The notes beneath the pieces were generated by a model. It did no database searches. It was not told the origin of the DNA and saw only the letters and a program-made list of their open reading frames with translations. A stretch of DNA of 26,659 nucleotides, taken from positions 1-26,659 of the IMG/VR virus record IMGVR_UViG_3300026484_000318; one strand, given 5' to 3'. Position numbers and translations under genes: made by a program. The stretch's first letter is position 1; the number at the start of each line of letters is the position of its first letter. This document shows, piece after piece, positions 3,874 through 20,233 of this stretch. This stretch comes from a virus.

Positions 3874-3933
3874 ATGAAAAAATCAAACATACTAACTAAA
3901 CTACTCAATGGGGGGGGGGAACTTCTCAGATAA
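3874..3933 (+). other. Probable native start of the PAPS-reductase-family gene, out of frame at G10
   Basis: ATG 3874-3876 lies immediately after the stop of the upstream gene with AAGGA about ten bases before it. It reads MKKSNILTKLLNGGG and then, because the tract has ten Gs, runs to a stop at 3931-3933 after 19 codons. Removing one G (G9) would join this frame exactly to the long frame that begins SDKTIFIISISGGKDS. By contrast the ATG at 3908 has no ribosome-binding site. So as sequenced the gene looks switched off or reduced, unless the G count is a sequencing error. Confidence 0.65.
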
Positions 3934-5191: not shown

Positions 5192-5590
5192 TCATTTTTT
5201 ACCTCGCATTATTTCACTTAGTTTTTTAGCCCTCTTTGAAGTTTGAACAGCCCAGCGACTTTTTAACATCTCATCAGCTGCACTCTCAAAATCTCCACTT
5301 TTTAAAGCTCTCCACATTCTTTTAAAAAGAAGTACTCCACCAACACCCATCTGATAACTCATTTCATAAAGCACTTTTTGCTTATCATCAGGCAAGTTAT
5401 AGACAAACGGCATAGCTATGATTAACTCATCTCTTTTTTGCTCAAGTCTATATTTTAAAAGAATTTCTGCTTCATTTTCATTTATAGGTAACTTAGTACC
5501 AAATCCAATAGTAAGAAACCCTAAACTATCATCATAAGGCATACCACTAAATCCCTCATGCTCTTTTAACTGTTCTTCTAAATCTATCAT
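5192..5590 (-). CDS. Phage lysozyme, T4-type (glycoside hydrolase 24)
   Basis: A 132-aa muramidase that would cleave the peptidoglycan glycan backbone. The triad of T4 lysozyme is visible with exact family spacing: Glu12 in KEHEGF, Asp21 in PYDDSLG and Thr27 in FLTIGFGT. The usual His after GxG is replaced by Thr. It has no signal peptide, so export would depend on a holin. It is the last gene of the minus-strand tail operon, after a lipoprotein and a DUF1353 protein; this is the expected place of a lysis enzyme releasing finished particles. The start ATG has GGTGG about 8 bases upstream. The hairpin and C9 tract follow its stop. Confidence 0.88.
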   Translation of the reverse strand: MIDLEEQLKEHEGFSGMPYDDSLGFLTIGFGTKLPINENEAEILLKYRLEQKRDELIIAMPFVYNLPDDKQKVLYEMSYQMGVGGVLLFKRMWRALKSGDFESAADEMLKSRWAVQTSKRAKKLSEIMRGKK

Positions 5591-5617
5591 TATATTACCA
5601 CCAACATTTTATTCCCA

Positions 5618-5875
5618 CTACTCTTGCATCTGAGTAGAATTTACACTCACTTTTTTTTTGCTTTTTTGTCGCTCTATCTCATCAACCATTGCCGTACGAC
5701 TTTTGTCATAAGTAACTATGACTTTATCCATCGCCTCAAGCTGAGGGTTATCTATATCAAGCTCTATATATGCAGTTCTCGCACCAACATAGATAACTTT
5801 CCCAGTACTATATGCTTTATCAGCACATCCACTAAAAGAGAAAACTATCATCATAAAAAGTAAAATTATTTTCAT
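5618..5875 (-). CDS. Small lipoprotein, possible outer-membrane spanin
   Basis: An 85-aa protein with a classic lipoprotein signal peptide: a short lysine start, a hydrophobic core, and FSFSGC with the lipidated cysteine at residue 17. The mature part has a beta-like stretch (VIYVGARTAYIELDI) and a lysine-rich charged C-terminus. Lying next to the lysozyme it could be an o-spanin (Rz1-like) or another envelope factor for lysis. Real Rz1 proteins are usually proline-rich, which this is not, so the assignment is weak. The ATG overlaps the upstream DUF1353 stop by 3 bases (ATGA). A run of nine As in the coding strand near the C-terminus is a possible slippage site. Confidence 0.6.
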   Translation of the reverse strand: MKIILLFMMIVFSFSGCADKAYSTGKVIYVGARTAYIELDIDNPQLEAMDKVIVTYDKSRTAMVDEIERQKSKKKVSVNSTQMQE

Positions 5876-6321
5876 TTATTTTTATCCTCATATCTGTTTT
5901 TAACTTCCTCTATTTTATTATAGAGTTCATAACTAAAGGGCTGTTTTTGTCTATGCTCTTTCCAAGCTTTACCACCTCCGACTTTAAGTCCTTTGCGAAC
6001 AAAGAAAACTCTCCACCACACGACATTGAGGGACTTCATAGCCTCTTTAAGCATATCATCGCTCTCCGCTCTTGTAAACATCCCAGTTTTATAGAGATAA
6101 TCATGAAGCACGTAAGCAAAAAGAGCTTTTCCGTCTTTTGGAAATATCCCCTGCAAAAACTGCGGAATACTCCCTAAATCAGTTTCAAATCCAACAGGAA
6201 CAACGATAAGCTGATTAACAATACTTTCAGAGTAGTAAGTTAAAATTGACTTAGTTGTTCGCAAAACTCCATCTCTTCCTACTCTTAAATCAATCTCTTC
6301 TTCTAAAAATCCAATTTCCAT
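5872..6321 (-). CDS. DUF1353 family phage protein
   Basis: A 149-aa protein with the hallmarks of DUF1353: VPVGFETDLGSIPQFLQGIFP (about residues 41-61) followed by ALFAYVLHDYLYKTG (about 67-81), in which Asp, Ser and the HDYLY block are conserved. Family members occur widely in tailed phages near tail or lysis genes, and their function is unknown. One suggestion is a peptidase or lysis role; I cannot decide from sequence. A lysine/arginine-rich C-terminal half follows. RBS AAGGG precedes the ATG. Downstream overlap with the lipoprotein gene indicates a single operon. Confidence 0.8.
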   Translation of the reverse strand: MEIGFLEEEIDLRVGRDGVLRTTKSILTYYSESIVNQLIVVPVGFETDLGSIPQFLQGIFPKDGKALFAYVLHDYLYKTGMFTRAESDDMLKEAMKSLNVVWWRVFFVRKGLKVGGGKAWKEHRQKQPFSYELYNKIEEVKNRYEDKNK

Positions 6322-6336
6322 CTAAACCCTTTTTTT

Positions 6337-7272
6337 TTAATTTTCTATCTCAAAAGAAGTAAGCCAACCAGCAGTTCTACTATAAGTATGACTACAACTA
6401 ACTACACTATAAACGCCATCATCTTCCCCATCATAAGTATTAAACAAGTCAACTTTAGTCCCAGCATAAACACTTTTTCCTTTTAAAGAAAGAGATCCAC
6501 TAACTGTTCCCTTGTTTATGCTTTTTAACTTAGCTTTTGCTTTTACTAAAGCGTCCTCAGCATCTATAAAAGTGCTTTTCATTTTAAATACTGGCGAACC
6601 ATCTCCAGCGATAACTTTTTTAGTTTTTGAACTATCTACATCATGCCACGATGCTTCACATGATTTGTAAAATGTTTTTGATGAATGCTTGAGAGAAGAA
6701 GAGCTGCATAAACTCACATCTATTTTCACGACAGGAAGAGATTTATCATCTTTATTCACAAAATACAGAAAATCATTTTTTATGGAAAAAGTACAGTTGT
6801 AAGTTTTAGAGAGTCTATCAAGAAAGTTAATATCGCTCTCGTTTGTTTGATTAAGAGATTTTATATCTATATCATCAGCTTCAAACTTCAACTTATGTCC
6901 TAGTCTATCAGCAACGATTTTCAATATCGAGGAGAGAGAACTATTCTGATAATGTTGTGACTGTTTATCTTTCTGTTTATCGCTAAACTCTATCCCAGTA
7001 GCACTAAAAGAGAGTGCCTTTGAGTTCGTTCTAGTAACAGTTTGAACATGAAAAAGACCACACTCGAGGGACTCTATTTTTTTATCATTTTTAAACGTTT
7101 CAAAAGTAAGCTCAATCTTAGAATTTGGGGCAGGTTTTGGAAAGTTTGGCATAACTTTAACAGAAACTTTGTCCGACTTTACTCCCGCACTATCACTAAA
7201 GCTAAGTGATAAAACATTTTCAATATATACATTTATCCCATCTATAGAGAGTTTTATAGTATCTCTTACCAT
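6337..7272 (-). CDS. D: Tail protein D (P2 gpD-like baseplate hub)
   Basis: A 311-aa protein resembling phage late control gene D. In contractile tails gpD forms the baseplate hub (like T4 gp27) that carries the spike V. The N-terminus sets out a beta barrel (IKLSIDGINVYIENVLSLSFSD). The middle contains LSSILKIVADRLGHKLKF and then SDINFLDRLSKTYNCTFSIK (about residues 155-174), the classic gpD signature. The C-terminus gives beta strands ending VVSCSHTYSRTAGWLTSFE, typical of the family. It follows X by overlap, matching the P2-like order U-X-D. Confidence 0.88.
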   Translation of the reverse strand: MVRDTIKLSIDGINVYIENVLSLSFSDSAGVKSDKVSVKVMPNFPKPAPNSKIELTFETFKNDKKIESLECGLFHVQTVTRTNSKALSFSATGIEFSDKQKDKQSQHYQNSSLSSILKIVADRLGHKLKFEADDIDIKSLNQTNESDINFLDRLSKTYNCTFSIKNDFLYFVNKDDKSLPVVKIDVSLCSSSSLKHSSKTFYKSCEASWHDVDSSKTKKVIAGDGSPVFKMKSTFIDAEDALVKAKAKLKSINKGTVSGSLSLKGKSVYAGTKVDLFNTYDGEDDGVYSVVSCSHTYSRTAGWLTSFEIEN

Positions 7273-7484
7273 AAAGCAACTCGCTCTTTATCTTCCACGA
7301 TTTCACTACTCTCTACAACAAACTCAGGAAGATCAAGCTCTAAGCCACTCTCTAAATTCAAAGACTTAAAGAAGAGAACTTTATTAGCACTTATCACATC
7401 GTTTAAATGTTTCAACTCTCCATAGTGTTTCAATACTATCAAATCTATTCTATCCCCATCTACACACTTATACAAGCTCATCAT
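7266..7484 (-). CDS. X: Tail protein X (LysM-like)
   Basis: A 72-aa protein of the phage tail X family, which has a LysM-like fold and helps attach the baseplate hub or tube. It shows DGDRIDLIVLKHYGELKHLNDVISAN and the final LELDLPEF stretch, as in P2 X. The annotated ATG is followed by a second ATG; AAAGAGG lies about 4 bases upstream. It overlaps U by 17 bp and D by 7 bp, so the three are translated in coupled order. Confidence 0.85.
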   Translation of the reverse strand: MMSLYKCVDGDRIDLIVLKHYGELKHLNDVISANKVLFFKSLNLESGLELDLPEFVVESSEIVEDKERVALW

Positions 7485-7872
7485 AAACCTCTTTTAAGGA
7501 TAAACTATAATCCTGAACTGTGTAGTCACCATTATCTAAAAAATGACTCTGATTGATATTTAAAGATGTTATAACGACACTAAAACTCTCTCTTAAAGTA
7601 GTAAGTTCAAGAGGCTCTCTAGCTTCTGCATAATCTTCTAAGCTCTTCAAAGCATTAAGAGGCTGAAGAACAAGAAATCCATTTAAAGAGATAGTTTTTG
7701 AAAATCCTCCACTATCGCTAAGTCTCTCTTGCCCTTTTATAGGCTTGAAACTTCCAAAAGTGACACTTAAAGATTTAGATATTTTTTTGTACTCATTTTT
7801 ATTCATATAAAATTTAAAATCGCCTATCTTCCCCATATCCATTCCGTTTACAAGTGTAGAAAGTGTACTCAT
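7468..7872 (-). CDS. U: Tail protein U (P2 gpU-like)
   Basis: A 134-aa protein of the gpU family, needed to terminate the tail tube or join it in P2-like tails. It begins GDFKFYMNKNEYKKISKSLSVTFGSF and continues GQERLSDSGGFSKTISLNGFLV, the typical N-terminal pattern. It ends with YTVQDYSLSLKEVYDELV. It follows the nuclease gene by a one-base overlap (position 7872). In P2, U directly follows the tape measure T; here a secreted nuclease has been inserted between them. Confidence 0.85.
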   Translation of the reverse strand: MSTLSTLVNGMDMGKIGDFKFYMNKNEYKKISKSLSVTFGSFKPIKGQERLSDSGGFSKTISLNGFLVLQPLNALKSLEDYAEAREPLELTTLRESFSVVITSLNINQSHFLDNGDYTVQDYSLSLKEVYDELV

Positions 7873-8375
7873 TAGTAACTCTTATATATTCCACGATGAT
7901 TGACATTTGCATCACGGCTTAACTCAAGCAGATATGCCTTACGCTCTCTACTTATTTGATTGCTAGGATAGTAAACAGCCAAGCCTTGACGTATTAAAGA
8001 GAAGTTTAAAACATCTATCCACACAAGTTGGCGTTTGTATTTATCTAAGCCATAGTAGTGATATTTAATCATCTTTCCTAAGTATCTATCTTTAACATAT
8101 CGTTGCGCTTCCCATCCTAAAGCTATAACTTTCTCAATGGTGTTTTTCTTATTCATAGGATGCACACTTTTAAGTGTTTCTAACTGTCCAAAAACTCTAT
8201 GATTAAACTTATTTTCAAAAGTATCAAGAGCAATCAAACGAACTTTAAAAGGTTTTGAACTACCTTTCTGAAGCATAAGAGTATCCCCATCAATCACATA
8301 CTTAACTTTTGCTTCTTGCCAATCATTCGCAAATAGTGAAGCCACTACTAACATCATTAAAATTACTTTTTTCAT
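7872..8375 (-). CDS. Secreted thermonuclease-like protein (SNase family)
   Basis: A 167-aa staphylococcal-nuclease-fold protein with a clear Sec signal peptide (residues 1-16, cut after LFA). Core motifs are VIDGDTLML (27-35, Asp31), VRLIALDTFE with Arg46, Asp51 and Glu54, and LDKYKRQLVWI with Arg115. These match the catalytic Arg35, Asp40, Glu43 and Arg87 of the family. LIRQGLAVYYP near 130-140 is the usual C-terminal strand. All catalytic positions are present, so it should be an active calcium-dependent DNA/RNA nuclease of the periplasm or outside. It sits between T and U, an uncommon place. It may be cargo, a moron gene, or a helper degrading released DNA. Confidence 0.87.
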   Translation of the reverse strand: MKKVILMMLVVASLFANDWQEAKVKYVIDGDTLMLQKGSSKPFKVRLIALDTFENKFNHRVFGQLETLKSVHPMNKKNTIEKVIALGWEAQRYVKDRYLGKMIKYHYYGLDKYKRQLVWIDVLNFSLIRQGLAVYYPSNQISRERKAYLLELSRDANVNHRGIYKSY

Positions 8376-8389
8376 TATTTTCCTTTGTA

Positions 8390-10774
8390 TTAAGATACGT
8401 CTTTATATTGTAAATCTTGCTCATCATGAGCCATTCTTCTGTTTACTCTTCCAAGCTTTTCATATAAGTCATCTTCATCAATCTTTCCATCATGAGCATG
8501 AATGGTTACATGATTTGTGACTGTCTGAGTTACTCCTTGAGTGTTGTTTGTGTGTGTATTGTTTTGCATAAATGACTTTGTTTCAGTTATCGCACTATTT
8601 GTAACAGCACTTACACTTTCTATCGGAATTATCGGAATTTTTTTCTCTTGTAAAGAAGAAGATTTAAAGTTTATATTATTTACTGGAGTTCCAACTTTTG
8701 GAATTTCACTTTTTATTTTTGTATCTTTTTTATCATCTCCAAACCCAAAAAAGTTCTTTGTGCTTGACCATGCCGATGATGCTCCATCAGAGATTGAACT
8801 TCCAGTTGACATGGCAAGATTTGCTACTTTCGTGTAACCCTCTATAACCATCGAAACCATGTCTAGTACAGAACTCATAACAGAAAGTAGAATTTTAATA
8901 GGAACAAGTGCAATGCTAAAAGCAGAGCCTATAACACCACCAACACTTTTAAAATTTATTCCTAACCCTCCTAACACACTCCCAAAAGCACTAAATACGG
9001 GGGAGAGTGCAGTAAAAAAACGAAATAAGCTATTTCCAACTTCTGACATTAAGAGCTTCACTTGTAGCATAGGAACAGAGAGCGATTCGCTTATTCCACT
9101 AAAAAGAGAATTTACTCCAGTTCGTACAGATTCAAAATTATTGTAAAGATAAATAGCACCTGCTGACATAGCAGCAAGCCCTAAAACTATAGCCGTTACG
9201 GGGGAGAAAAGAAGTGCTAATCCTGCACCGACTCCACTAGCTACAAGTCCAAATCCAGCAAGTGCTAAAGAGCCAACTACAAACGCTGCACCGAGTCCAA
9301 AGACCCATTTTGAGGCATTTGGAAATTTTTCTGTAAATGATTGAATATGAGTTGTAGCACTTGTGAATCCTTGAATCATGTATTTGATAGATGGAAGTAG
9401 TCCAGTTGTAGCACTAATGCTTAAACCCTCTACAGCAGAGCTTAACAGTTTCATTTGTCCGAGAGTTGTTGCTAGTTGAATATCTGCTATCTTTTTAGCA
9501 GCACCTTTGTAGTCGTTAACTACACTCAAGTATTTATCTAAAGCACCGCTCCCACTCTTTTCGATAAGAGCATTTATACCAGCCGCTGGTTCTGTACCAA
9601 AAACTTTTTTAATAAATCCTAATCTATCCCCACTACCCATATTTTCCGTAGCATTTGCTACATCTTTTAAAAGAAGAGGCATATTTTTAATGTTTCCTTG
9701 CGCATCTAAAGCAGATATTCCAAGTTCACTTAATGCTTTTCGTGCTTTGCCTGTGGGACTTGAAAGTCTAAGTACCATACTTTTTAGAGTTGTTCCAGCC
9801 ATGCTTCCTGAAATACCTATATTTCCCAATAGCCCAGCCATTGAAGCCGTTTCTTGCAGACTCATCCCAGCAGTTTTAGCTATTGGAGCGATATATTTCA
9901 TAGTATCTCCAAGTGAAGACATGTCAATATTTGAAGACGTGATTGTTTTTGCTAATATATCTGATACTGTATTCATCTGAGAAGCCTCAAGACCAAAACT
10001 TTTTAATATATTTCCCGAAATATCTGAAGCAGTTCCCAAGTCAGTAGCTCCAGCAGTAGCTAAGCTCAAAAGACCAGGCATCGCTTTTATAGTCTCATTT
10101 GAAGTAAATCCTTTCATAGAAAGTGACTGCATCCCATCTACTACCTGACCTGAAGACCACTCTGTAGATGATCCTAGCTTAAGTGCCGTATCATTTAAAG
10201 ACTTAAACTCTTGTTTTGTAGCATTACTTAAAGCTTTCACACGAGCCATCTTACTTTCAAACTCTATACTTGATTTAAATGGAAGTGCCAAAACAGTTGC
10301 TACAGCGGCAGCTCCAACAAAAGAACCAGTAGAACTACTACTACTGTTATTAGAGTGTACTGTTGAACTTCCACTACTCCCATCTCTCGTTCTACTTCGT
10401 ACAGCTCTTGAACCTCTTTCGAGATTTATAGCATTTTGTCTTGAAAAAAATGCAGTTTGCGAAGCATCTTGACACATAGCACTAAAATCTTTACGAGCTT
10501 CTCTTAAGCTTCCTCTTGAATCTTCAACATTTAATCTAATAGGATTAGAGCTTATATGAGCCATTTGAGAACGCATCTGTCCCAAGTGATTTTCAAGGCT
10601 TTTCATATTTTTCTTTAAAAGTGGGAAATTTGTTGCTTTTAATAAGTTAAATTTTACTAAAGTTCGAGCAGGGCTAACAAGCTTATTTACGGATGCCTGC
10701 AAGAAGTCTGCCCCGTTTATGGCACTATTCATAACTAAGTTAATAGAAAGACTTGTATCTTTAGCCGTTGCCAT
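8390..10774 (-). CDS. T: Tail tape measure protein (TP901 core)
   Basis: A 794-aa protein that sets tail length and fills the tube lumen. Residues about 165-390 carry the TP901-family core: FKSSIEFESKMARVKALS near the start, then GATDLGTASDISGNILKSFG, SLQETASMAGLLGNIGISGS and GSMAGTTLKSMVLRLSSP. A hydrophobic, glycine/alanine-rich region (about 485-545) has several membrane-like segments, as expected for a protein delivered into a membrane. A serine-rich low-complexity stretch lies near 128-148. P2 T is 815 aa for a tail of roughly 135 nm, so this is a full-length tape measure and no shortening is evident. It lies downstream of the HU-like gene and its terminator. Confidence 0.9.
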   Translation of the reverse strand: MATAKDTSLSINLVMNSAINGADFLQASVNKLVSPARTLVKFNLLKATNFPLLKKNMKSLENHLGQMRSQMAHISSNPIRLNVEDSRGSLREARKDFSAMCQDASQTAFFSRQNAINLERGSRAVRSRTRDGSSGSSTVHSNNSSSSSTGSFVGAAAVATVLALPFKSSIEFESKMARVKALSNATKQEFKSLNDTALKLGSSTEWSSGQVVDGMQSLSMKGFTSNETIKAMPGLLSLATAGATDLGTASDISGNILKSFGLEASQMNTVSDILAKTITSSNIDMSSLGDTMKYIAPIAKTAGMSLQETASMAGLLGNIGISGSMAGTTLKSMVLRLSSPTGKARKALSELGISALDAQGNIKNMPLLLKDVANATENMGSGDRLGFIKKVFGTEPAAGINALIEKSGSGALDKYLSVVNDYKGAAKKIADIQLATTLGQMKLLSSAVEGLSISATTGLLPSIKYMIQGFTSATTHIQSFTEKFPNASKWVFGLGAAFVVGSLALAGFGLVASGVGAGLALLFSPVTAIVLGLAAMSAGAIYLYNNFESVRTGVNSLFSGISESLSVPMLQVKLLMSEVGNSLFRFFTALSPVFSAFGSVLGGLGINFKSVGGVIGSAFSIALVPIKILLSVMSSVLDMVSMVIEGYTKVANLAMSTGSSISDGASSAWSSTKNFFGFGDDKKDTKIKSEIPKVGTPVNNINFKSSSLQEKKIPIIPIESVSAVTNSAITETKSFMQNNTHTNNTQGVTQTVTNHVTIHAHDGKIDEDDLYEKLGRVNRRMAHDEQDLQYKDVS

Positions 10775-10863
10775 TTTTACACCTTTTTTATATTTATTTA
10801 TCTGTTTTTAAAATCCAAAGTCCATGGAACAAATCACACGTTTTAAATTTTAAAAATAGATAG

Positions 10864-10887
10864 AGCAAGAGAAAATGACCTCTTGCT
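10864..10887 (-). terminator. Hairpin terminator after the HU-like gene
   Basis: AGCAAGAG (10864-10871) and CTCTTGCT (10880-10887) form a perfect 8-bp stem with an 8-base loop. On the minus strand it is followed by a U-rich stretch containing five consecutive Us. It lies 15 bases after the HU-like stop and before the tape measure, inside the tail operon. It may attenuate transcription so that HU-like and upstream tube and sheath genes are expressed more than T. Confidence 0.6.
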
Positions 10888-10901
10888 GTTTTGTGGGAAG
10901 A

Positions 10902-11216
10902 CTACGCTTCTGTAGTATTGATCGCAGCTTTAAGTTTATCACTCTCTACAAATTTAACATGAAGACCAGCATCAGAAGTTCCAGATGTACCATCAGGAAG
11001 AACATAGCTTCTCTCTTCATGAGAACGAACTTCAAGAGTTCCAAGACCACTTACTTTGATACCTTTACCACCAGCTAATGCATTGAAAAGTAAATCATTT
11101 TGTTTATCCATGATTTTATCTACTAAAGTTTTAGTAACTTTAACACCATCAGCTTCAAGACCTGCATGAACTGCTTCTCTTTGTTCTTTTTCATTTAATG
11201 TATGTAATTTATCCAT
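10902..11216 (-). CDS. HU/IHF-like DNA-binding protein in the tail operon
   Basis: A 104-aa protein whose residues about 25-100 align by eye with HU/IHF: helices through DKIMDKQNDLLFNALAGGK, then GIKVSGLGTLEVRSHEERS (in HU typically GFGTFEVRERAAR), a variable arm, and HVKFVESDKLKAAIN in place of the final FKxGxxLK block. The DNA-intercalating Asn-Pro at the arm tip appears as Leu-Pro, and the arm carries a different TSGTSD segment. A 20-residue N-terminal extension precedes it. It lies where P2 goes directly from E' to T. RBS GAGGAG, 8 bases before the ATG, is one of the best in the operon. It may bend element DNA, or be a repurposed structural protein. Confidence 0.68.
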   Translation of the reverse strand: MDKLHTLNEKEQREAVHAGLEADGVKVTKTLVDKIMDKQNDLLFNALAGGKGIKVSGLGTLEVRSHEERSYVLPDGTSGTSDAGLHVKFVESDKLKAAINTTEA

Positions 11217-11285
11217 TGTTTGACTCCTCAGTCATAAAATATTTTTTACGGCTTTGCCAACCCACTCACTTTTCAGAGAAGGAAG

Positions 11286-11740
11286 TTATTTGCGATTTAA
11301 TTGCATCATCTCTATCTTTTGTTTGTGTTTTTTAAGTGCAACATCAAAATAATCGAACCACTCACGAACTGAGAGTAGTTTCTGCTCATTTACCGATAGA
11401 AAGAAAAACTCTGAAACTAGACTATAAGCTTCTAGTCGATTAGTACGATTTCCGCCGAGTCGTACAAAAAACCTTGTTGCACAGCATTTACAAGCTGAGC
11501 ATCTGCACGAGATAGTGAAGCAGCTTCTTTTTCAGTTATTCCACAAGATATTGAAATTTCATCATAAACTGTCGCTTGACCTTTTTTCAAAAGTTGCTCA
11601 TCATCAATGCCGTTGAGTTCATTAACTGTTAAAACAGTGATCTCTCTCTCTTCTTTACGAATAGTTGCTTTTTTCTTATCGCCAAATGGATACAAACGGC
11701 TAAGTGCTACTTGTTTGCTTTCATAAATATTTTTACTCAT
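11286..11740 (-). CDS. E': Tail assembly chaperone, -1 frameshift product (E+E')
   Basis: A -1 slip at the TTTTTTG heptamer (11465-11471 on the minus strand) joins the first 92 codons of E to a second open frame of 59 residues. That frame begins VRLGGNRTNRLEAYSL and contains EFFFLSVNEQKLLSVREWF and DYFDVALKKHKQK before TAA at 11286-11288. The product is 151 aa. The same heptamer and the same gene layout (FII, E/E', T) are known in P2, where the long product is a tail chaperone made at low frequency and needed for tail assembly. The second frame has no start codon or ribosome-binding site of its own, which supports frameshifting. Confidence 0.8.
11432..11740 (-). CDS. E: Tail assembly protein E
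   Basis: A 102-aa protein of the P2 gpE / phage tail assembly chaperone type, read in frame zero. It lies between the tube gene FII and the tape measure T, the conserved place for this chaperone. It features KKATIRKEEREITVLTVNELNGID and ends in GFLYDSAEIVLID. The sequence includes the slippery heptamer 11 codons before the stop. The short form is made in excess and binds the tape measure with the long form during tube assembly. The family match is by position, length and frameshift more than by motif. Confidence 0.78.
   Translation of the reverse strand: MSKNIYESKQVALSRLYPFGDKKKATIRKEEREITVLTVNELNGIDDEQLLKKGQATVYDEISISCGITEKEAASLSRADAQLVNAVQQGFLYDSAEIVLID
11465..11471 (-). promoter_or_regulatory. 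Slippery heptamer T TTT TTG for -1 frameshift
   Basis: In the E frame the codons are GGT TTT TTG, so the heptamer T TTT TTG is in the right register for tandem slippage. The -1 frame is open from there to 11286, while frame zero stops at 11432. This matches the known site of P2 E/E'. Confidence 0.8.
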
Positions 11741-11755
11741 TAAAATCTACCTTTT

Positions 11756-12232
11756 TTATATGTTGTTTGAAAAATCAGGAGCCATCGGAATGCCTCCCAA
11801 AAATAAGCTATATGGGCTACGTGTATAAACAATAGATGGAAGTGCATTCACTAACTCAGTATACATATCTACACGAAGCTCAAAAGTTCTTTTAGCAGCA
11901 TCGCCCTCTTTCATCTCAGCAGATATTTTAGTAACTTCACCCTGCACAGTAACAAGAAGAGGAGTATCTTCCCCATCTTGACGAAGATTACCTTTCAAGA
12001 TAAAAGGTGCGCCACTTGCGATATGTGTTATATACATAGGATGTAAGTCTAAAACTTCAAGAGTCATAGTTGGCTGTTTAACTAAGCCTGTACTTTGTTC
12101 ATTTACAGTCTCAAACTCAAACTCAGGGGGCTTAGTCCCATCGCCTGTATATCCAAATGTGTTTTTCCCAGCTATCATAATTGAAAGCCCTGTAAGCAAC
12201 TGGGAATCATTTCCTAAACCATTTTTTGTCAT
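11756..12232 (-). CDS. FII: Major tail tube protein (FII)
   Basis: A 158-aa protein of the P2 FII tube family. Hexameric rings of this protein stack to form the inner tube driven through the target envelope when the sheath contracts. Typical features are FEFETVNEQSTGLVKQPTMTLEVLDL near the first third and ILKGNLRQDGEDTPLLVTVQGEVTKI in the middle, then FELRVDMYTEL. It follows the sheath gene by 3 bases and precedes E, as in P2. The ATG at 12232 is the only sensible start. Confidence 0.88.
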   Translation of the reverse strand: MTKNGLGNDSQLLTGLSIMIAGKNTFGYTGDGTKPPEFEFETVNEQSTGLVKQPTMTLEVLDLHPMYITHIASGAPFILKGNLRQDGEDTPLLVTVQGEVTKISAEMKEGDAAKRTFELRVDMYTELVNALPSIVYTRSPYSLFLGGIPMAPDFSNNI

Positions 12233-12235
12233 CTT

Positions 12236-13423
12236 TTACACCTCCACAGTATAGTAATCATTCGTAGCATAAGGCTGAATAACAATCGCTCTTACACCAA
12301 CATTATTTCCTGCATCGTAATCCATATAAACAACACCGGCCGCGATTTCTTCAGCAGAGTTTTTATCACTCCACCAAACTTTCGCACCAAGTGCCGAACC
12401 ACTTTTTACTGCTTTTAAAAGAAAAGCATCAGCATCAGCTTTCGCTAAAATAAGAACTTCTGCAAAAGGGCGGTGTTTATGTTTTTTAAGAGATTTTTGT
12501 AAATTTTCATTTATCAAATCAAAAAATCGAACTGTCTCAAGCTTGTTGAAACGAACATCATCACTCGGGGACTCAAAGTTATAAAGTCTATTCCCATCAT
12601 CATTTAATAGCAATGCGCCACCAGCATTTACAATAGTGTTCACTTCGCAAGTATCTTCACCCTCCTCATATGTAAGAGGAACAGCTGAACCCTCTACATC
12701 GTAGATAAGTCTATTCGCATGGTCGAAACATTGACCGAACTCGCCAAGGAGTGCATCCCATCTAGCGATATGACCAGCTACGATTGCAGAGTTTGGTTTT
12801 AGAATAGTTTTCTTTTCATACAGAGAGTAAACTTTTCTATAAAAAGGAAATGCTAAGTATCTTGTAGAACCAAGAAGAGGGAGTGTTGTAAGAGACGTAT
12901 TTACACTTGTTTCATTTAAGTCAATTATTGCTATTGTCTTAGTTCCAACTACTAAAGAGTCAAGAGCATTACGAACAGTAATATTATGAGAGAAGTATGA
13001 AGCTATAGATATTCTAACTTTTTCAGTAAAAACAGTACGAGCTTTTTTCAAGTTTTCAATAGCAACTAAAATAGCACTTTTAAAATCTTTATCATCATAA
13101 AACGATTGAGGAGCTTTTTTATCATAATCTGATTTATACTCTACTAGAGAGATAACAACTGGGGACTTCACATTTTGAGCATTTATGTCATATAAATCTT
13201 CTCTTATTGTCCCCGCTTGATTTTCAAACACTTCAAGTGCAGCCTCTGCACTTGAAAAACGAAGAAGTTTAGCTTGAGAGTCATCGTTGTAAAGTGCTAA
13301 AACTTCATCACTAAGTCCATTTAAAGAAGCAGAGCCAACAACACCGATGATCGTTTTAGATGTGATAATCGTTGCAGTAGCACTAGCATTTTTAGTTGGT
13401 AAAATTTTAATTCCGTTTGGCAT
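12236..13423 (-). CDS. FI: Contractile tail sheath protein (FI)
   Basis: A 395-aa sheath protein, the same length as P2 FI (about 396 aa). Contraction of this outer cylinder drives the tube into the target. The N-terminus starts GIKILPTKNASATATIITSKTI, followed by GVVGSASL; the central region has VAGHIARWDALLGEFGQCFDHANR (about residues 213-236, kept here as the sheath signature). The C-terminal domain has the NKLETVRFFDLINENLQKSL stretch and ends AIVIQPYATNDYYTVEV, as in FI-type sheaths. It is intact, with no stop or frameshift, so the tail should be contractile. Confidence 0.92.
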   Translation of the reverse strand: MPNGIKILPTKNASATATIITSKTIIGVVGSASLNGLSDEVLALYNDDSQAKLLRFSSAEAALEVFENQAGTIREDLYDINAQNVKSPVVISLVEYKSDYDKKAPQSFYDDKDFKSAILVAIENLKKARTVFTEKVRISIASYFSHNITVRNALDSLVVGTKTIAIIDLNETSVNTSLTTLPLLGSTRYLAFPFYRKVYSLYEKKTILKPNSAIVAGHIARWDALLGEFGQCFDHANRLIYDVEGSAVPLTYEEGEDTCEVNTIVNAGGALLLNDDGNRLYNFESPSDDVRFNKLETVRFFDLINENLQKSLKKHKHRPFAEVLILAKADADAFLLKAVKSGSALGAKVWWSDKNSAEEIAAGVVYMDYDAGNNVGVRAIVIQPYATNDYYTVEV

Positions 13424-13434
13424 ATTTAGCCTCC

Positions 13435-14133
13435 TTATTCAAACAATGCTTTAACATCATCATCAGTTGCATCTGCACCTAAATCTTTTGCTTTTTCAAG
13501 AACATCTGATACTTTGTCAAACTCTTTCGCTTCAATAAGTTTTCCAACTTGAATACGAAATGCTTCAATTTTTGCATTAAAACTAGAAAGTGCGAGTTTA
13601 TACGCTTCGCCTTTTGCAATAACAACATCAGCAAAATCTGAAATACTCATACCTTGTAACTCAGCCTCAAGAGATAAAATAGACTCACTACTACCATCTT
13701 TTTTATAAGATAATGAAGCTTGATATTTTTCTTCATATCGTGCTAACTGCTCAACTGATACATAAGAATCGTTTATATAGCTTTTTGCTTCAACTGATTT
13801 TTTATCACAAAGTGAAACAAGATTTCTAACAGCCTCAGATTTCTTCTCATCATCGCTTAGCTCTTTTTCAACTATCTCGCCATCTACAAATAGCTTTCCA
13901 AGTACAGAATAGTCTATAGCTTCAAGAGGAGAGAGAACACAGTTCTCTTCATCTGTTTTACTATCAAGTATAGAAACTATCTCTTTTTCATCTGTTAGAA
14001 TAAAATAGATTGCATCTGTATCTTCTACATCAAACTCAATATCTTCTACCTCTGTAACTTCAACAGCTTTTCCATCAAGCTCTGTATCTTCAACCATTGT
14101 ATCTTCTAAAATTTCATCATTTAAAGTTTCCAT
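13435..14133 (-). CDS. Acidic protein between fibre and sheath, possible fibre chaperone
   Basis: A 232-aa, very acidic and mostly helical protein with no recognised family. The N-terminal 35 residues are a run of Asp/Glu/Val (LNDEILEDTMVEDTELDGKA), then a small beta-like segment (AIYFILTDEKEIVSIL), then helices to the end. It takes the place of the P2 fibre-assembly protein G, immediately after the fibre genes and before the sheath. A chaperone for fibre trimerisation is therefore plausible, but this rests only on position and composition. It has 11 bases to the sheath gene and no promoter in between. Confidence 0.62.
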   Translation of the reverse strand: METLNDEILEDTMVEDTELDGKAVEVTEVEDIEFDVEDTDAIYFILTDEKEIVSILDSKTDEENCVLSPLEAIDYSVLGKLFVDGEIVEKELSDDEKKSEAVRNLVSLCDKKSVEAKSYINDSYVSVEQLARYEEKYQASLSYKKDGSSESILSLEAELQGMSISDFADVVIAKGEAYKLALSSFNAKIEAFRIQVGKLIEAKEFDKVSDVLEKAKDLGADATDDDVKALFE

Positions 14134-14149
14134 ATTTTTCCCTTATTTT

Positions 14150-15115
14150 TTATTTTTGCCAAACTGTTAAAAAGTTAAACCAAGCATCGCCTCTTTGTTC
14201 AGAGTTTCTACACTCAACTTTAATCCGACCACCATCGTTATTTGAACGAACACGACAGATTAATGTGTCATCACCATTTACAGTTCCTGAAAAATAGATA
14301 ATGTGATGTGATACAACAACAGCTTTTAAATTCCCAATTACATAGCCACTTGGAGGAGTTATATATCCATAACCACCTACAGCTTTTACAGTACCACTAT
14401 AAAATTTTGTGTTAGAAGTATGGTTTACTTTTGCACCTTTAACATAAGCTTCATTGTAAAAGAAAGTTTTGTTTGAAGCATCAGTTCTTAAAGACCAATG
14501 TCTGTCTTTATTTAAAATACCAATATTGTTCGATTTATCCCAATAAAAATAACCTCTAGCAACATCATTTTCGATAGTACCTTTTATTGCACCACTGGAT
14601 GAACCAGATCTTAATGTCATATCACTTCTATTTTGAGGGTAAATATGCCAGCTGTAACCAGGATTTTTTGGATTGTGCCAATACAAACCACTTGCACCTG
14701 TACCATTATTTCTTATCCAATGTTCATAGTAATTTTCTTTCCAAACATACAAACCATCTGTATTTATTCTTGCAACTCTTTGATTATTTGCAAACATCTC
14801 AAGCTGACCATCTCCATTTTGTCTGAAACCTGTATCGTTATCTCCAAGAGCTAAACCTTTTCCATTGTTAAGATTTCCACTTGGCGAAACACCAATACCC
14901 ATAGAGTGATTAAACTCTTTTTTTGCATCAAAATCAGCTTTCACCTTTGCAATATTGGGCACATTTACCTCTGTAACATTTCCGTGATCATCAAGCATTT
15001 TTACTTTTACTGTCTCAGGTTTTGAGCTATAAAACAGTTTTGAATTGTTTTTTGACCAACTACTAGCTACACTTGTGTAGCTATTTATTTTCGTTTGTAA
15101 TGAATTTAAGTCCAT
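14150..15115 (-). CDS. Tail fibre tip, probable receptor-binding protein
   Basis: A 321-aa fibre protein. After a short helical N-terminus it carries a glycine/asparagine-rich beta shaft with LALGDNDTGFRQNGDGQLEM and ARINTDGLYVWKENYYE (about residues 90-130), as in T4 gp37-type long-fibre shafts. Later repeats such as GYFYWDKSNNIGILNK and HWSLRTDASN follow. The C-terminal 80 residues look like a compact beta tip and are the likely receptor-binding domain. No fibre-cleaving chaperone domain is visible. It would set the target range of the particle. RBS AAAGGAG lies 5 bases before the start. Confidence 0.82.
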   Translation of the reverse strand: MDLNSLQTKINSYTSVASSWSKNNSKLFYSSKPETVKVKMLDDHGNVTEVNVPNIAKVKADFDAKKEFNHSMGIGVSPSGNLNNGKGLALGDNDTGFRQNGDGQLEMFANNQRVARINTDGLYVWKENYYEHWIRNNGTGASGLYWHNPKNPGYSWHIYPQNRSDMTLRSGSSSGAIKGTIENDVARGYFYWDKSNNIGILNKDRHWSLRTDASNKTFFYNEAYVKGAKVNHTSNTKFYSGTVKAVGGYGYITPPSGYVIGNLKAVVVSHHIIYFSGTVNGDDTLICRVRSNNDGGRIKVECRNSEQRGDAWFNFLTVWQK

Positions 15116-15125
15116 AATCTCTCCT

Positions 15126-15800
15126 TTATTTGTTAAGTAACCCTATCGTTTTGGAATTGTCTAGTATCTCAATTCCTAACGATAAAGTGTTTTCAAACAT
15201 ACCTGCATGAAGATTTTCAATCTCTCCAAGCAGTACGTTTATGTTCTGTTTATCTGCCATGGCTCTCTCTTTTAAAAAAAGAATATCTCTACTCATCTCT
15301 TGAATTCTTCTTCTATTTAAACCCTCCTCCTCTGCAAATTCCATAGTCTCACATCCAAAAGTAAGAGCCGTATCTAACGATGCTAGACTCTGCTCTTGTT
15401 CTGAAAAAGGGATATATTTAAAATCAAGTAAATTTTCAGCATTTTGGAAAACAAATTGAATTTTTAAAGTTTGTCGTGCTTGAGGTGGGAAAGGGTATGG
15501 AGGTTTTGCAACCATAAAAAGAGTCCCATCATCTAAGTAAAGACCACAAACAACGGCATAACTTGTCGCATCAGTAGGCTTCACATCACACACAAACTCT
15601 ACAGTGTTGTCATCAAGAACTTGATATAAGTCTATATCTTGTTCTATCCATCCATCTATATCTTTACTCTCAAGCTTTATATCTAACTCAATATCGCTAG
15701 AACAGAACTTGAAATACTTAGGCATCACATCTCTGTTGTTTAAGCTAGCATCTCTTAATGCTTTTAGCCCTAAAGCAGTTATTAAACTCTTTCCTGTCAT
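15126..15800 (-). CDS. Phage tail-collar fibre protein (gpH-like N-terminal part)
   Basis: A 224-aa protein resembling the N-terminal domain of P2 gpH tail-collar fibres. It begins TGKSLITALGLKALRDASL and shows the expected beta pattern with TVEFVCDVKPTDATSYAVVC and GTLFMVAKPPYPFPPQARQT (the PPYPFPP turn is characteristic). This domain attaches fibres to the baseplate. Unlike P2 H it stops at 224 aa and the distal fibre is a separate gene, so attachment and receptor-binding functions are split into two proteins. It overlaps I by ATGA. Confidence 0.8.
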   Translation of the reverse strand: MTGKSLITALGLKALRDASLNNRDVMPKYFKFCSSDIELDIKLESKDIDGWIEQDIDLYQVLDDNTVEFVCDVKPTDATSYAVVCGLYLDDGTLFMVAKPPYPFPPQARQTLKIQFVFQNAENLLDFKYIPFSEQEQSLASLDTALTFGCETMEFAEEEGLNRRRIQEMSRDILFLKERAMADKQNINVLLGEIENLHAGMFENTLSLGIEILDNSKTIGLLNK

Positions 15801-16405
15801 CTTAAACCCTCCATTTTTATGTAGTAAAACGACTCACTCGCAAGACCTATATTTGTTATTTGAGTCATCTCTATATTTTCTTCATAAGCATTATGCATCT
15901 CTAAATTTTGAGAGTTTTCACAAACAAAACCGATATTTATAGAAGAGTTGTTTTCACTTAAATAGTTAAGCTTTATCTCTTTTAGGTGGCTACGTACATT
16001 TTTAGTTCTTTTAATAAGTTTTTCTGTTTTTTCTAAAGTTGTCTTATTAAACTTTCTACACCCATCTTCTATTTTCAAATCAATACTAAAATCTCCACAC
16101 AACAGAGACTTATCTTCAAACCATTCCACAACTTTTGGACTATCAAAATAAACTTTTAAAGCATCTTCCACAGCTCCAACAGTTCCTATGTACTTTCTAT
16201 TAAAAGTTTTTAAATATGCACGAGCTTCATTTTCTTGCATTTCATCAATATTCGCTCCTTTTATAAGAGCTATATGGGGGAGAAGTGATGAGTCACAAAT
16301 GATGGAATCTTTTGTTATATCTTCATAACTTACTTGTGACTGAATGTCTAATAATTCTGCGAAAGATTGATTTTTTAAAGAGTTGTTTTTACTTAAGAGA
16401 CTCAT
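15797..16405 (-). CDS. I: Tail protein I (P2 gpI-like baseplate wedge)
   Basis: A 202-aa protein of the phage tail protein I family, a baseplate wedge part to which the fibre attaches. The stretch SLLPHIALIKGANIDEMQENEARAYL (about residues 40-65) corresponds to the conserved LPxLAWxxxVDxWxxxWxxxxR region. It is followed by RKYIGTVGAVEDALKVYF and the strand KVVEWF. Overlaps of the ATGA type with J upstream and the collar protein downstream show tight coupling, in P2 order J-I-H. Confidence 0.85.
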   Translation of the reverse strand: MSLLSKNNSLKNQSFAELLDIQSQVSYEDITKDSIICDSSLLPHIALIKGANIDEMQENEARAYLKTFNRKYIGTVGAVEDALKVYFDSPKVVEWFEDKSLLCGDFSIDLKIEDGCRKFNKTTLEKTEKLIKRTKNVRSHLKEIKLNYLSENNSSINIGFVCENSQNLEMHNAYEENIEMTQITNIGLASESFYYIKMEGLR

Positions 16406-17592
16406 AGAACAGCCTCTTTAAAATTTATGTTTAAAGCAGAGATTTCAAATATCTGCTTTTCGCTGATAATTACATCAGAAAAATCTGTAGTTACTCTATA
16501 AACTCCATTTATATGGCACTTACGAATCAAGTCACTTCTTACAAAATCTTGTCCTATAAAAAAAGAGTTGCTAAAACTAGCTCTTATATTAGTATCTATG
16601 TCTCCTTGAGACAACATATCAAAAAGTTCTACTTCTACAGTTATCTCATCTATGATTGTTTCTGCGGGGGAGACTATTACTTTATCGTTTAAAGGTCGAA
16701 CATATCTTGCACTACAAGCTTCATAAACTCTATCTATCATTAGAGCATCTACTCCACTAAAAGAAGAAATATAGATGTTTACTTCTAATGCTTTTTCAGA
16801 CAATACAGTTATATCATCTATGCGACTATCTGCACTCAGTGCATGATATTTATATGCTTCTACACTTCCAGCCGTTGAATATCTATCGTTTGATGCAATA
16901 ATTCTTACTCTATATCTATCATCACTTTCGTTTGTTGCACCATTTTTAAAAATATCTAGCTGTTTAATTTTTACTGCGAATTGTAGTGAAGTAACAAGAG
17001 TTTCTGTTTTTACTTCACTCTCTTCTACATACTCTTGAAGTGCTACTTTTACAACAGAACTCATAGCCCCCTTTAATAGTGAAACTGTCTCTAAAACGAT
17101 AGCCTTATATTGTTTAGTTTCATCGCTAAGAATAAGTCCTTTCGGGATATAAACAATTTCATCTTTTGCTACTAAAAGCTTAAACTCAAACTCTGCATAA
17201 GGATACTCTCCATTATCACGAAAAACATTCTCTCCAGCGCCTAGATCATCTAAATCATACCCAGTTGCAGTAGTTACGAGTATCTGCTTAACTGTCTCTT
17301 TTTTATCAGCTTGAGTATGAATCTGTCTAAGAGTAAGTACTCTTAAGTTTTTCATATATGGATCACTCTCTAAAGGCTGCCATTTATCATTTTTGAATAT
17401 ATAGTTGTTTATATAGTTGTCATACTCATCTGTTCCAATTATGTAAGGAATACTCTTTATATATTCAAGTTCCCCATCAAAACATATCTGAGAAAGTTTT
17501 ATATTTACATCTAAAAGATAATCAAAGTCAAGCATTGTAAATGCAGTCGGCTCTTTTAGAGAAGAGAGCTTGCTCTCTATGTCATCATACAT
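16402..17592 (-). CDS. J: Baseplate assembly protein J
   Basis: A 396-aa baseplate J/gp47-type wedge protein that forms the periphery of the baseplate with W and I. Family signatures include TATGYDLDDLGAGENVFR (about residues 108-125), the region with ESDDRYRVRII (about 222-232) equivalent to the conserved EsDe.yR.R, and YKYHALSADSRIDDITVLS. P2 J is about 300 aa, so this is a longer version. It overlaps W by 8 bp and I by 4 bp. Intact. Confidence 0.88.
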   Translation of the reverse strand: MYDDIESKLSSLKEPTAFTMLDFDYLLDVNIKLSQICFDGELEYIKSIPYIIGTDEYDNYINNYIFKNDKWQPLESDPYMKNLRVLTLRQIHTQADKKETVKQILVTTATGYDLDDLGAGENVFRDNGEYPYAEFEFKLLVAKDEIVYIPKGLILSDETKQYKAIVLETVSLLKGAMSSVVKVALQEYVEESEVKTETLVTSLQFAVKIKQLDIFKNGATNESDDRYRVRIIASNDRYSTAGSVEAYKYHALSADSRIDDITVLSEKALEVNIYISSFSGVDALMIDRVYEACSARYVRPLNDKVIVSPAETIIDEITVEVELFDMLSQGDIDTNIRASFSNSFFIGQDFVRSDLIRKCHINGVYRVTTDFSDVIISEKQIFEISALNINFKEAVL

Positions 17593-17881
17593 TTATGACT
17601 CCTTCAATAATTTTATGTTCTATATAGACTTTGTAAGAGATTACCCCATTTCCAACTCGTGAAGAATCTATATCTGCCCCTCTAAACTTTAAACGCTGAT
17701 CATATCTGCAAGCATCTTTTAAACATCTTCTAAAGTCAATCACCCATTCACTATCAAACGAACGATGCTTAAGCTTAAAAAGATTAGTCCCATAATCAGG
17801 ATTACAGATAACTGAGCCTTTTTGAGTTGCTAAAGTATCTCTAAAGCTCTCTTCCTCGCTTACTGCATAGTAGATATTCAT
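17585..17881 (-). CDS. W: Baseplate protein W (gp25-like)
   Basis: A 98-aa protein of the GPW/gp25 family, the conserved core wedge at which sheath contraction starts. It has RDTLATQKGSVICNPDYGTNLFKLKH (about residues 13-38), where the RPDYG-like motif is present as NPDYG, and the C-terminal strand pair. Its start codon overlaps the preceding stop (TAATG). The order V-(61 aa)-W-J-I matches P2 and R-type pyocins. Confidence 0.88.
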   Translation of the reverse strand: MNIYYAVSEEESFRDTLATQKGSVICNPDYGTNLFKLKHRSFDSEWVIDFRRCLKDACRYDQRLKFRGADIDSSRVGNGVISYKVYIEHKIIEGVINV

Positions 17882-18066
17882 TACGATACTTTATAAGTTC
17901 CAGCAGATGAACCACCTGATACTACTACTTCTGCATTTGCTATAATCTCTAATACTACTGCTTTTGCTATTGCATTTGCTAGACACTTGTTGCTATCAGT
18001 CAACTTAATTCCGCAAGCTATTAAATTTACTTCTATTTTAGAGCTTAATGAGCTATCTGTTATCAT
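17881..18066 (-). CDS. Small protein between V and W (61 aa)
   Basis: An unrecognised 61-aa protein joined by ATGA overlap with V and TAATG overlap with W, so it is translated as part of the baseplate block. It has an alanine-rich helix (KCLANAIAKAVVLEIIANAEVVV) and a glycine/serine-rich end. A tip (PAAR-like) or small baseplate part is possible since it follows the spike gene, but no PAAR repeat is visible. Confidence 0.65.
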   Translation of the reverse strand: MITDSSLSSKIEVNLIACGIKLTDSNKCLANAIAKAVVLEIIANAEVVVSGGSSAGTYKVS

Positions 18067-18608
18067 TTTACTGACCTTGTATTTCTGCTTTCATCCATAT
18101 GAGGAGAACCTGTGAATGGGCAGATACTTTCAGCAGTTATAACACCCATTCCACCTTTCCCCAAGTCTATACTTGCACTATCAACTGTTACAGAATTTGC
18201 TTTGAGAGTTGCACTTTCGCACTCTATCTTTACACTTTTTGCTATGTTTATAGTTACTGAGCAGGGAGTAGTTAGTGAGATTTCTTTAGTGTTTGTATTG
18301 TGGGCATATGTAGTTTTATCGTTAAACTTTGCTATAAAAGTATCTTCGTTTGCTTCATCAGGGAGAGGAATATCTTCTTTTGTGAGTCCACGAATCACAA
18401 ATCCATCTTCGTTATTTCCGTAAGGATTTAAGACTATCACTTGATCCCCTATTCTTACTGGAGTGTGAACTACTAGAAAAGAAGATGATTGTGTTTTAAC
18501 TGGAAGCCAATTTGTCACTCTTTCGTCTGTATCAACTTTTACTTCAAGTTTTTTGCCAAGACCTAGCGTTTTGTATCTAAACTCTGTTATCGTTCCATAC
18601 TGAATCAT
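18063..18608 (-). CDS. V: Baseplate spike protein V
   Basis: A 181-aa gpV-type central spike that pierces the target envelope. The N-terminal OB-fold (residues about 1-90) includes ERVTNWLPVKT and GDQVIVLNPYGNNEDGFVIRGL. A repetitive beta-helix shaft follows with TTYAHNTNTKEISLTT and the repeats ATLKANSVTVDSASIDLGKG. It ends CPFTGSPHMDESRNTRSVK, a tip of the kind that binds metal in V spikes. ATGA overlap with both neighbours. Confidence 0.9.
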   Translation of the reverse strand: MIQYGTITEFRYKTLGLGKKLEVKVDTDERVTNWLPVKTQSSSFLVVHTPVRIGDQVIVLNPYGNNEDGFVIRGLTKEDIPLPDEANEDTFIAKFNDKTTYAHNTNTKEISLTTPCSVTINIAKSVKIECESATLKANSVTVDSASIDLGKGGMGVITAESICPFTGSPHMDESRNTRSVK

Positions 18609-18895
18609 AGTTTGCCGCTTCTATCTTTCATTACAAGCTCTTTGAGATGATTTAGTTTTAAGTCTATATCATCTTTATCGTAAAACTTATCGTACAATCT
18701 TGATGATGTAGTATAAGTTCTTTCAAGCGCCTCAATAATCTTTATAACTTCATCTTCCATCGCTTTAAGACGTTTATCTTTATTCTCTTTTGATTTTTGC
18801 AACTCAATAATAATTTGATGGTCATGATACACTTTTGCGAAGTATAAGATCATCGTTGTTGCAGCCGTATAAATGAGCGAAGATGAGATTTCCAA
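18605..18895 (-). CDS. Small membrane/coiled-coil protein, first gene of the tail operon
   Basis: A 96-aa protein starting at a TTG with AAGG six bases upstream. Residues about 7-22 form a hydrophobic segment, followed by a charged coiled coil (HQIIIELQKSKENKDKRLKAM) and more helix. One membrane span plus coiled coil fits a holin-like protein or an i-spanin, which the operon otherwise lacks. P2-type clusters do carry lysis genes close to the tail genes. No family is recognised, so this is a guess from topology. It overlaps V by 4 bp. Confidence 0.6.
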   Translation of the reverse strand: MEISSSLIYTAATTMILYFAKVYHDHQIIIELQKSKENKDKRLKAMEDEVIKIIEALERTYTTSSRLYDKFYDKDDIDLKLNHLKELVMKDRSGKL

Positions 18896-19433: not shown

Positions 19434-20120
19434 TTAACTTTTTAAGACTCTTCCAACAACAATTCCGAGAATATCAAGCATATCTTGACTCTCAGTTTTG
19501 TTTATTTCCTCACTTGCATAAGAGCTATTACATGAAGATATGACTATATTCCCATTACTCTTAAATGTTAAATTTTTAACCATCGTTCCATTTATAGTCC
19601 TTATGATGTACTTCCCATCATTTAGGTTGTAGATCCCATCCTCTATAGCAGAGAACAGAACTACATCATCAGGATTCACATAGGGACTCATACTATCGCC
19701 TATAACAGTTAATGCACTAATGTCTGAGTTTGAATAAGACCTCTTTATAGATGCTCTATCTATATAAATATACTTTGCTATTTCTATGTTATCTATATAG
19801 CTACAACTGCCTGCGCCTATGTATCCATCTATGAGTGGAACTCTTTTTGTATGTTCTGAAATTTCTTTAAACTGTGGAGCTTTTTTTGTGATAACTTTAT
19901 TTATAGCATTATCACTATCATCGAATAAAAATTGCTCGGGGATATTTAAAATTTCAGCTATTGCAGAAATTATTTCAACTTTTGGACTTACATTTCTTTC
20001 CCACGAATAAATGCTACTTTTTTTGTAATTTGTACCCAAAATATTATTTATAGAATTAGCAATTTGCTCTTGAGTATAGTTTTTCAACTCTCTATATTTC
20101 TTTAAATTATAATTAAACAT
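19434..20120 (-). CDS. CI/LexA-type repressor with S24 autocleavage domain
   Basis: A 228-aa repressor starting at the ATG at 20120, chosen for AAGGAG at 20128-20133; the frame extends further upstream without a site. Residues about 5-60 form an HTH of the XRE type (YTQEQIANSINNILG, SSIYSWERNVSPKVEIISAIAEIL). The C-terminal half is an S24 peptidase: GDSMSPYVNPDD with Ser143, and Lys182 in TMVKNL. An Ala103-Gly104 bond in IGAGS fits the cleavage site. It probably keeps the element silent and is inactivated by RecA during DNA damage, which would switch on the tail genes. It is divergent from the Cro-like gene with three operators between. No SOS assay is implied by sequence alone. Confidence 0.88.
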   Translation of the reverse strand: MFNYNLKKYRELKNYTQEQIANSINNILGTNYKKSSIYSWERNVSPKVEIISAIAEILNIPEQFLFDDSDNAINKVITKKAPQFKEISEHTKRVPLIDGYIGAGSCSYIDNIEIAKYIYIDRASIKRSYSNSDISALTVIGDSMSPYVNPDDVVLFSAIEDGIYNLNDGKYIIRTINGTMVKNLTFKSNGNIVISSCNSSYASEEINKTESQDMLDILGIVVGRVLKS

Positions 20121-20134
20121 TTTAAAACTCCTTA

Positions 20135-20229: not shown

Positions 20230-20233
20230 GCTA

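Follow-up and report, generated by a model that had tools for sequence, protein, structure and literature searches.

The 26,659-nucleotide stretch of DNA analysed here (the window), which is the entire IMG/VR virus record IMGVR_UViG_3300026484_000318, carries a contractile tail operon, its own replication genes and palindromes at both ends, and no recognised head gene. The element is probably a plasmid-borne R-type tailocin, inducible by the SOS response. This interpretation follows from a tail that is complete, a head that is absent, lysis genes and an SOS-type control that have been kept, a headless state that is old and selected, and a fibre that is diversified. An initial annotation of the window alone had already suggested a tailocin on a plasmid; the suggestion is strengthened by 18 headless relatives, which turn a single plasmid into a conserved and apparently undescribed plasmid family in Campylobacterota.

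Results and discussion

The open reading frames (ORFs) of the window were listed, and almost every plausible gene was compared with PHROGs or Pfam profiles. The tail genes lie on the minus strand, in a leftward operon of 13.7 kb that runs from 18895, the start of its first gene, to 5192, the 3′ end of the lysozyme gene. Their order is a holin-like gene, V, a small conserved gene, W, J, I, three fibre-module genes, FI, FII, E (with E′ by frameshift), an HU gene, the tape measure gene T, a staphylococcal-nuclease-like (SNase) gene, U, X, D, and the genes of a DUF1353 protein, a lipoprotein and a lysozyme. Profiles recognise V, W, J, I, the fibre, FI, T, U, X, D, DUF1353 and lysozyme, while FII and E, weak or silent by profile, were identified from where they lie and from their homologues in relatives. 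Sheath, tube, tape measure, baseplate, spike and fibre are all present. The P2 order and gene list of the initial annotation are thereby reproduced, except that its separate collar gene was not found and that it had overlooked the HU and SNase genes.

The spike and baseplate assembly protein gpV (18063–18608; phrog_9992, E 4e-19) is followed by the small conserved protein (17881–18066; phrog_5576, E 4e-16), the baseplate wedge proteins gpW (17585–17881; phrog_43) and gpJ (16402–17592; phrog_6, E 4e-37), and gpI (15797–16405; phrog_48). The fibre module consists of a putative N-terminal adaptor without a family match (15126–15800; placed by position, with homologues at 46–50% in relatives G003, IMGVR_UViG_3300037333_000207, and G590, IMGVR_UViG_3300005043_000021), the tail fibre (14150–15115; phrog_5454 and phrog_454) and a protein that may be chaperone-like (13435–14133; by position, 61% in G003). 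The sheath FI (12236–13423; phrog_23, E 4e-23) directly precedes the tube FII (11756–12232), which has homologues at 40–80% in relatives and about 25% identity to the FII of chromosomal kin; a weak match of FII to a head-closure family (phrog_55, E 0.008) is contradicted by this position and homology. Within gpE (11432–11740), a P2-type −1 slip at T TTT TTG gives the E′ extension into the next gap, and slip and E′ tail are conserved in nine members, at T TTT TTG (or TTA) or G GGT TTT. The 794-aa tape measure (8390–10774; phrog_28, E 1.6e-104), gpU (7468–7872; phrog_76, E 2.6e-15), gpX (7266–7484; phrog_46, E 4.5e-9), the baseplate hub gpD (6337–7272; phrog_52, E 5e-55) and the DUF1353 protein (5872–6321; PF07087, E 9e-18) lie further along the operon. 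Among the lysis genes, the endolysin, a phage lysozyme (5192–5590; PF00959, phrog_7), was identified by profile. The first gene of the operon (18605–18895), which lacks a family match, has the N-terminal membrane segment and charged coil of a putative holin, and relatives hold homologues or positional equivalents with a clear transmembrane segment; the small lipoprotein (5618–5875), with a signal and a cysteine, is conserved in relatives, has no Pfam match and may be spanin-like.

The HU-like DNA-binding protein (10902–11216) matches PF00216 above the cut-off (E 3.6e-6); in its AlphaFold model, with a mean pLDDT of 69.8, only the order of the elements is HU-like. The SNase-like protein (7872–8375; PF00565, E 1.8e-7) bears an export signal, as judged by eye, and its catalytic positions are intact, D31, R46, D51, T52, E54 and R115 being invariant in six members.

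A nuclease gene inside a tail operon could suggest that the tail is an extracellular contractile injection system like Afp, PVC or MAC, whose delivered effector might be the nuclease itself. Afp is, moreover, a plasmid-encoded contractile tail particle (PMC10598620). We nevertheless regard this as quite improbable, since no AAA+ ATPase family was matched among the operon proteins in the PHROGs and Pfam scans, no effector-loading genes were recognised in the window, and the lysis genes, phage-type CI switch and P2-type hub and fibre genes have the character of a phage or a tailocin. The export signal of the nuclease also speaks against its delivery as an effector.

Absence of a head

The PHROGs and Pfam scans of the window proteins yielded neither a portal, terminase or capsid nor a protease or neck gene, the weak and contradicted match of FII being the sole nominal exception, and searches of the window targeted with PF04860, the large terminase subunit (TerL) family phrog_2 and PF03864 gave no match. 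All window ORFs longer than 250 aa are assigned to other roles, which leaves no room for an unrecognised portal, capsid or TerL of the usual size. As a positive control, the same Pfam scan of the headed relative G582 detected Portal_Mu, Phage_cap_E, Mu F, the Mu I protease, gp36 and tail_S, and is therefore able to see heads of the right kind. The statement in the initial annotation that portal, terminase, scaffold, capsid and head-completion genes are lacking is thus borne out, and in the profile comparisons that it had proposed no portal, TerL, capsid or head–tail joining family was recognised in the window.

Alternatively, the element could be a phage satellite: the tails would be its own product, while its 26.6-kb genome would be packaged with a head, portal and terminase supplied by a helper phage. 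Capsid-forming phage-inducible chromosomal islands (PICIs), which keep capsids and borrow tails, would be its mirror image: like other satellites they carry half of a virion's structural genes, whereas the window element keeps the tails and has no known helper. The element resembles a phage-plasmid in replicating autonomously and in having lysis genes and a CI-type switch; the four complete or near-complete members fall within a narrow band of 26.1–27.1 kb; HU could condense DNA; and the wide spread of the family requires some route of transfer. Against this, neither of the head–tail joining genes found in the headed relative (tail_S, PF05069, and gp36) was recognised among the window proteins in the PHROGs and Pfam scans, and no satellite-type packaging or capsid-remodelling gene was seen. 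TerL (phrog_2, PF03237), Mu portal and HK97 capsid were not found in the metagenome-assembled genomes (MAGs) of G010 and G011, which are incomplete and to which the plasmid contigs may or may not belong, and PF03237, Mu portal and HK97 capsid were not found in G187, an incomplete MAG of a candidate host. A satellite, which the initial annotation had offered as its alternative, is therefore judged unlikely, and less likely than a tailocin, to account for the element. Only about as likely is the broader idea that the headless tail serves the movement of the plasmid's own DNA, whether packaged into a helper's heads as in a tail-making satellite or through some other association with the tail, which would make it a new class of mobile element; HU and the nuclease, the two genes that the headless family has in common as additions to the operon, are the reason to think that the element may transfer its own DNA.

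A complete hairpin-ended replicon

The record appears to be a complete linear molecule with closed hairpin ends, as its end sequences support. At the left end (1–30) lies a palindrome with 15-nt arms (CAGTTATTTAATTAA and TTAATTAAATAACTG) centred between 15 and 16, and at the right end (26562–26659) one with perfect 49-nt arms centred between 26610 and 26611; the arm TAATTAAATAACTGTTAGT is common to both, and both are centred on it. Palindromes with a shared arm at both ends are the expected product of reads through covalently closed hairpins, and their centres place the replicon at 16–26610, that is 26,595 bp. The possibility that the record is truncated, with head genes beyond its ends, is ruled out by these palindromes and by their repetition in G589 (IMGVR_UViG_3300005264_000274). 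Next to the left palindrome, on the plus strand, is a protelomerase, or telomere resolvase, gene (432–1775; PF16684 ResT-TelK_cat, E 3.4e-12, 46.7 bits against a cut-off of 27), with homologues at 38–93% in nine relatives. The linear-plasmid premise and the assumed completeness of the initial annotation are both upheld by these features.

The replicon also carries genes for phage-type control. The CI-type repressor (19434–20156, minus strand; helix-turn-helix PF01381 and S24 peptidase PF00717; phrog_4, E 1e-26) has the Ala-Gly of GYIGAGS and the Ser of GDSMS, as expected of the self-cleaving type, in agreement with the earlier description of the element as repressor-controlled. Divergent from it are two small regulators (20228–20898, plus strand; weak phrog_2439/phrog_8 and phrog_836), of which one may be Cro-like and the other possibly a late activator.

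The remaining genes are on the plus strand. A ParA-type partition ATPase (1777–2391; PF01656, E 8e-5, slightly under cut-off; 73–97% in relatives) is followed by a small ribbon-helix-helix-like partner (2384–2695; weak PF16777), whose position is kept in relatives and whose role would be ParB-like. Replication genes comprise a CHC2/Toprim primase (22346–23506; PF01807 and PF13155, under cut-off) and a DUF5906/D5-type replicative helicase (23493–25355; PF19263, E 6.5e-20), and a conserved protein adjoining the right telomere (25782–26222; 38–88% in relatives, without a family match) possibly has a telomere or replication role. An accessory protein with a PAPS-reductase domain (3908–4999; PF01507, E 2.5e-23) also occurs in G004 (IMGVR_UViG_3300007777_000018) and G589. 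In two relatives the PAPS-reductase gene adjoins a C5-cytosine-methyltransferase-like gene, and others have a D12 adenine methyltransferase 3′ of the lysis genes; these genes are possibly DNA modification cargo.

A family of headless plasmids

Relatives were gathered by searches with sheath, protelomerase and HU profiles. The 18 related contigs are sixteen viral records and two MAG contigs (G010, CAIUZU010000236.1, and G011, JAERRW010000013.1); of the two, one comes from a Helicobacteraceae bin and one from a Sulfurospirillum bin. Among the viral records are G001 (IMGVR_UViG_3300026484_000161), G002 (IMGVR_UViG_3300026512_000052), G005 (IMGVR_UViG_3300028584_000530), G006 (IMGVR_UViG_3300003343_000002), G007 (IMGVR_UViG_3300026521_000443), G008 (IMGVR_UViG_3300021978_000040), G009 (IMGVR_UViG_3300025107_000128), G012 (IMGVR_UViG_3300021792_000078), G013 (IMGVR_UViG_3300028398_000027), G586 (IMGVR_UViG_3300026512_000084), G587 (IMGVR_UViG_3300019766_000019) and G588 (IMGVR_UViG_3300026484_000214), in addition to the four already named; an extra MAG contig of 3.2 kb holds FI, FII, E and HU. 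Gene order is the same throughout the 18 contigs, and none has a recognisable head gene. All ten protelomerase-bearing contigs, the window included, carry the tail, and none of the ten a recognisable head gene. That 18 relatives share the headless layout makes a tailocin plasmid a much stronger proposition than a one-off deletion.

Telomere palindromes occur in relatives as well. G002, G005 and G007 begin with the core of the window's left palindrome, beside the protelomerase gene, and G589 (27,145 bp), an independent second case, has palindromes with 52-nt arms at both ends; its protelomerase is just 38% identical to the nearest family relative, and its telomere differs correspondingly (ATTAAATGAAGATTA). 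G002 (26,593 bp) and G587 (26,103 bp) are complete except for short stretches missing from one end. A 10,916-bp Campylobacteria contig (G475:C17) resembles a further hairpin plasmid, one that lacks tail genes: its protelomerase is distant (27%), and the sequence of one end recurs almost identically, in inverted orientation, at the other.

HU is present in 19 of 19 headless contigs (window included) and SNase in every contig that spans its position, whereas both are missing from all five chromosomal tail loci; HU and SNase thus seem to be additions specific to the headless family. Between HU and the tape measure, G006 and G009 have an oppositely oriented insert of three genes, one of them HNH-like by eye, that is not found in their close relative G010.

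The genes between I and FI vary among members while the tail core is conserved, so that the fibre module has been replaced. In G586 (L087:2792-6902) this module includes a reverse transcriptase (PF00078), bAvd (PF22296) and a 109-nt pair of template and variable repeats, in which 17 of 17 differences fall at template adenines; these are the parts of a diversity-generating retroelement whose target is the terminus of a 632-aa fibre-like protein. G005 ends in a partial, diverged reverse transcriptase gene, and no reverse transcriptase was matched in the window. Next to their fibre genes, the chromosomal tail loci of G120 and G582 have an Avd-like gene and the gene of a reverse transcriptase related to the one in G586 (about 49%).

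Origin and age of the headless state

Sheath homologues were present in 47 of the 397 Campylobacteria genomes sampled. Three of the tail loci, G582, G493 and G402, are chromosomal Mu-like prophages with heads (Portal_Mu and Phage_cap_E); that of G419 resembles them from its ORFs alone, and that of G120 ends at a contig edge. These Mu-like phages, and not P2, are the nearest headed kin of the tail, so that the initial annotation was right about gene order (V-W-J-I…FI-FII-E-T-U-X-D) and is modified as to descent. They often have a D12 methyltransferase after D, and, unlike the plasmids, they carry head genes and are devoid of HU, SNase and protelomerase.

A branch with 100/100 support and a length of 2.72 separates the headless family and the small MAG contigs from 23 other Campylobacterota sheaths in the maximum-likelihood tree of the sheath. 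This support indicates that the absence of a head is old and stable, and the tree is consistent with a single old loss of the head, although the length of the branch makes the deeper placement unsure. The ratio of non-synonymous to synonymous substitution rates (dN/dS) between G002 and G007 was 0.13 for FI (dN 0.025, dS 0.193), 0.08 for FII (0.011 and 0.142), 0.07 for U and 0.13 for D, and higher, 0.71, for X; between G009 and G010 it was 0.06 for V and 0.10 for J. Most tail genes therefore appear to be under purifying selection. Protelomerase and tail-gene distances are only loosely correlated (Spearman −0.04 to 0.82), which suggests that modules recombine within the headless family. A telomere phage made defective by a recent loss of head genes, as the single record would allow, is extremely improbable in view of 19 diverged headless contigs on one well-supported branch and purifying selection on their tails; recent decay as such is ruled out by the conserved headless family and the selection on tail genes.

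Heads might instead be encoded by a second replicon in the same cell, the two together making up a full virus. Metagenomic records are not linked to cells, and a second replicon would be invisible in them. However, searches of viral contigs, of the 397-genome sample and of phage and plasmid collections revealed no related protelomerase on a headed contig (a tblastn search of 50,697 phage and 72,556 plasmid records with the protelomerase gave no match), and we consider this explanation very improbable.

A proposed mechanism, and comparison with known systems

Taken as a tailocin, the element of this gene content, with these ends and under this conservation and selection, could work as follows. 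The linear replicon would be copied by its own primase and helicase, its ends resolved into hairpins by the protelomerase, and the plasmid partitioned by ParA and its small partner. The CI/S24 repressor would silence the leftward operon until DNA damage caused its self-cleavage, whereupon a full contractile tail with exchangeable fibres would be produced together with the lysis proteins. Lysis would free headless particles, whose fibres would bind relatives of the host; contraction of the tail would then pierce the envelope and kill the target. HU and the secreted nuclease might act in or after the burst, for instance in late regulation or in clearing released DNA. Carriers would outcompete plasmid-free kin, to the gain of the plasmid, as for colicin plasmids.

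Several points weigh against this putative tailocin. No tail terminator or collar gene was identified in the window tail operon, and the HU and nuclease genes of that operon are atypical of known tailocins and might point to DNA handling. In addition, without recognised transfer genes or virions, the spread of the family across hosts has no explanation.

With R-type tailocins such as the R-pyocins, dickeyocin and carotovoricin, the window element shares a P2-type contractile tail cluster, lysis genes, the lack of a head and, presumably, a killing particle. It differs from them in being a complete hairpin-ended linear plasmid, with its own replication, partition and CI switch, and in the HU and secreted nuclease genes of its operon. 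With the telomere phages (N15, PY54, Valp1, Klebsiella NAR688) it shares a protelomerase, a linear plasmid form with closed hairpin ends and phage-type control, but those phages make virions, and the window has no head, portal or terminase genes. Klebsiella telomere phages kill by protein telocins, not by tails (PMC12042878), and a recent review of tailocins does not mention plasmids (PMC12090994). Searches of the open-access literature turned up tailocins, telomere phages with telocins and the plasmid-encoded Afp; no description of a tailocin carried by a hairpin plasmid was among the results, in line with the initial impression that this combination is undescribed.

Conclusions

Tailocins are usually seen as domesticated chromosomal weapons. 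If the proposal is correct, tailocins would also be mobile cargo, carried, much as colicins are, by plasmids that replicate themselves, here with hairpin ends and dedicated to a tail weapon; the range of tailocins would extend to environmental Campylobacterota. The diversity-generating retroelement of G586 suggests that such a weapon may retarget itself. The family would then represent a stable end point for a phage lineage after the loss of its head.

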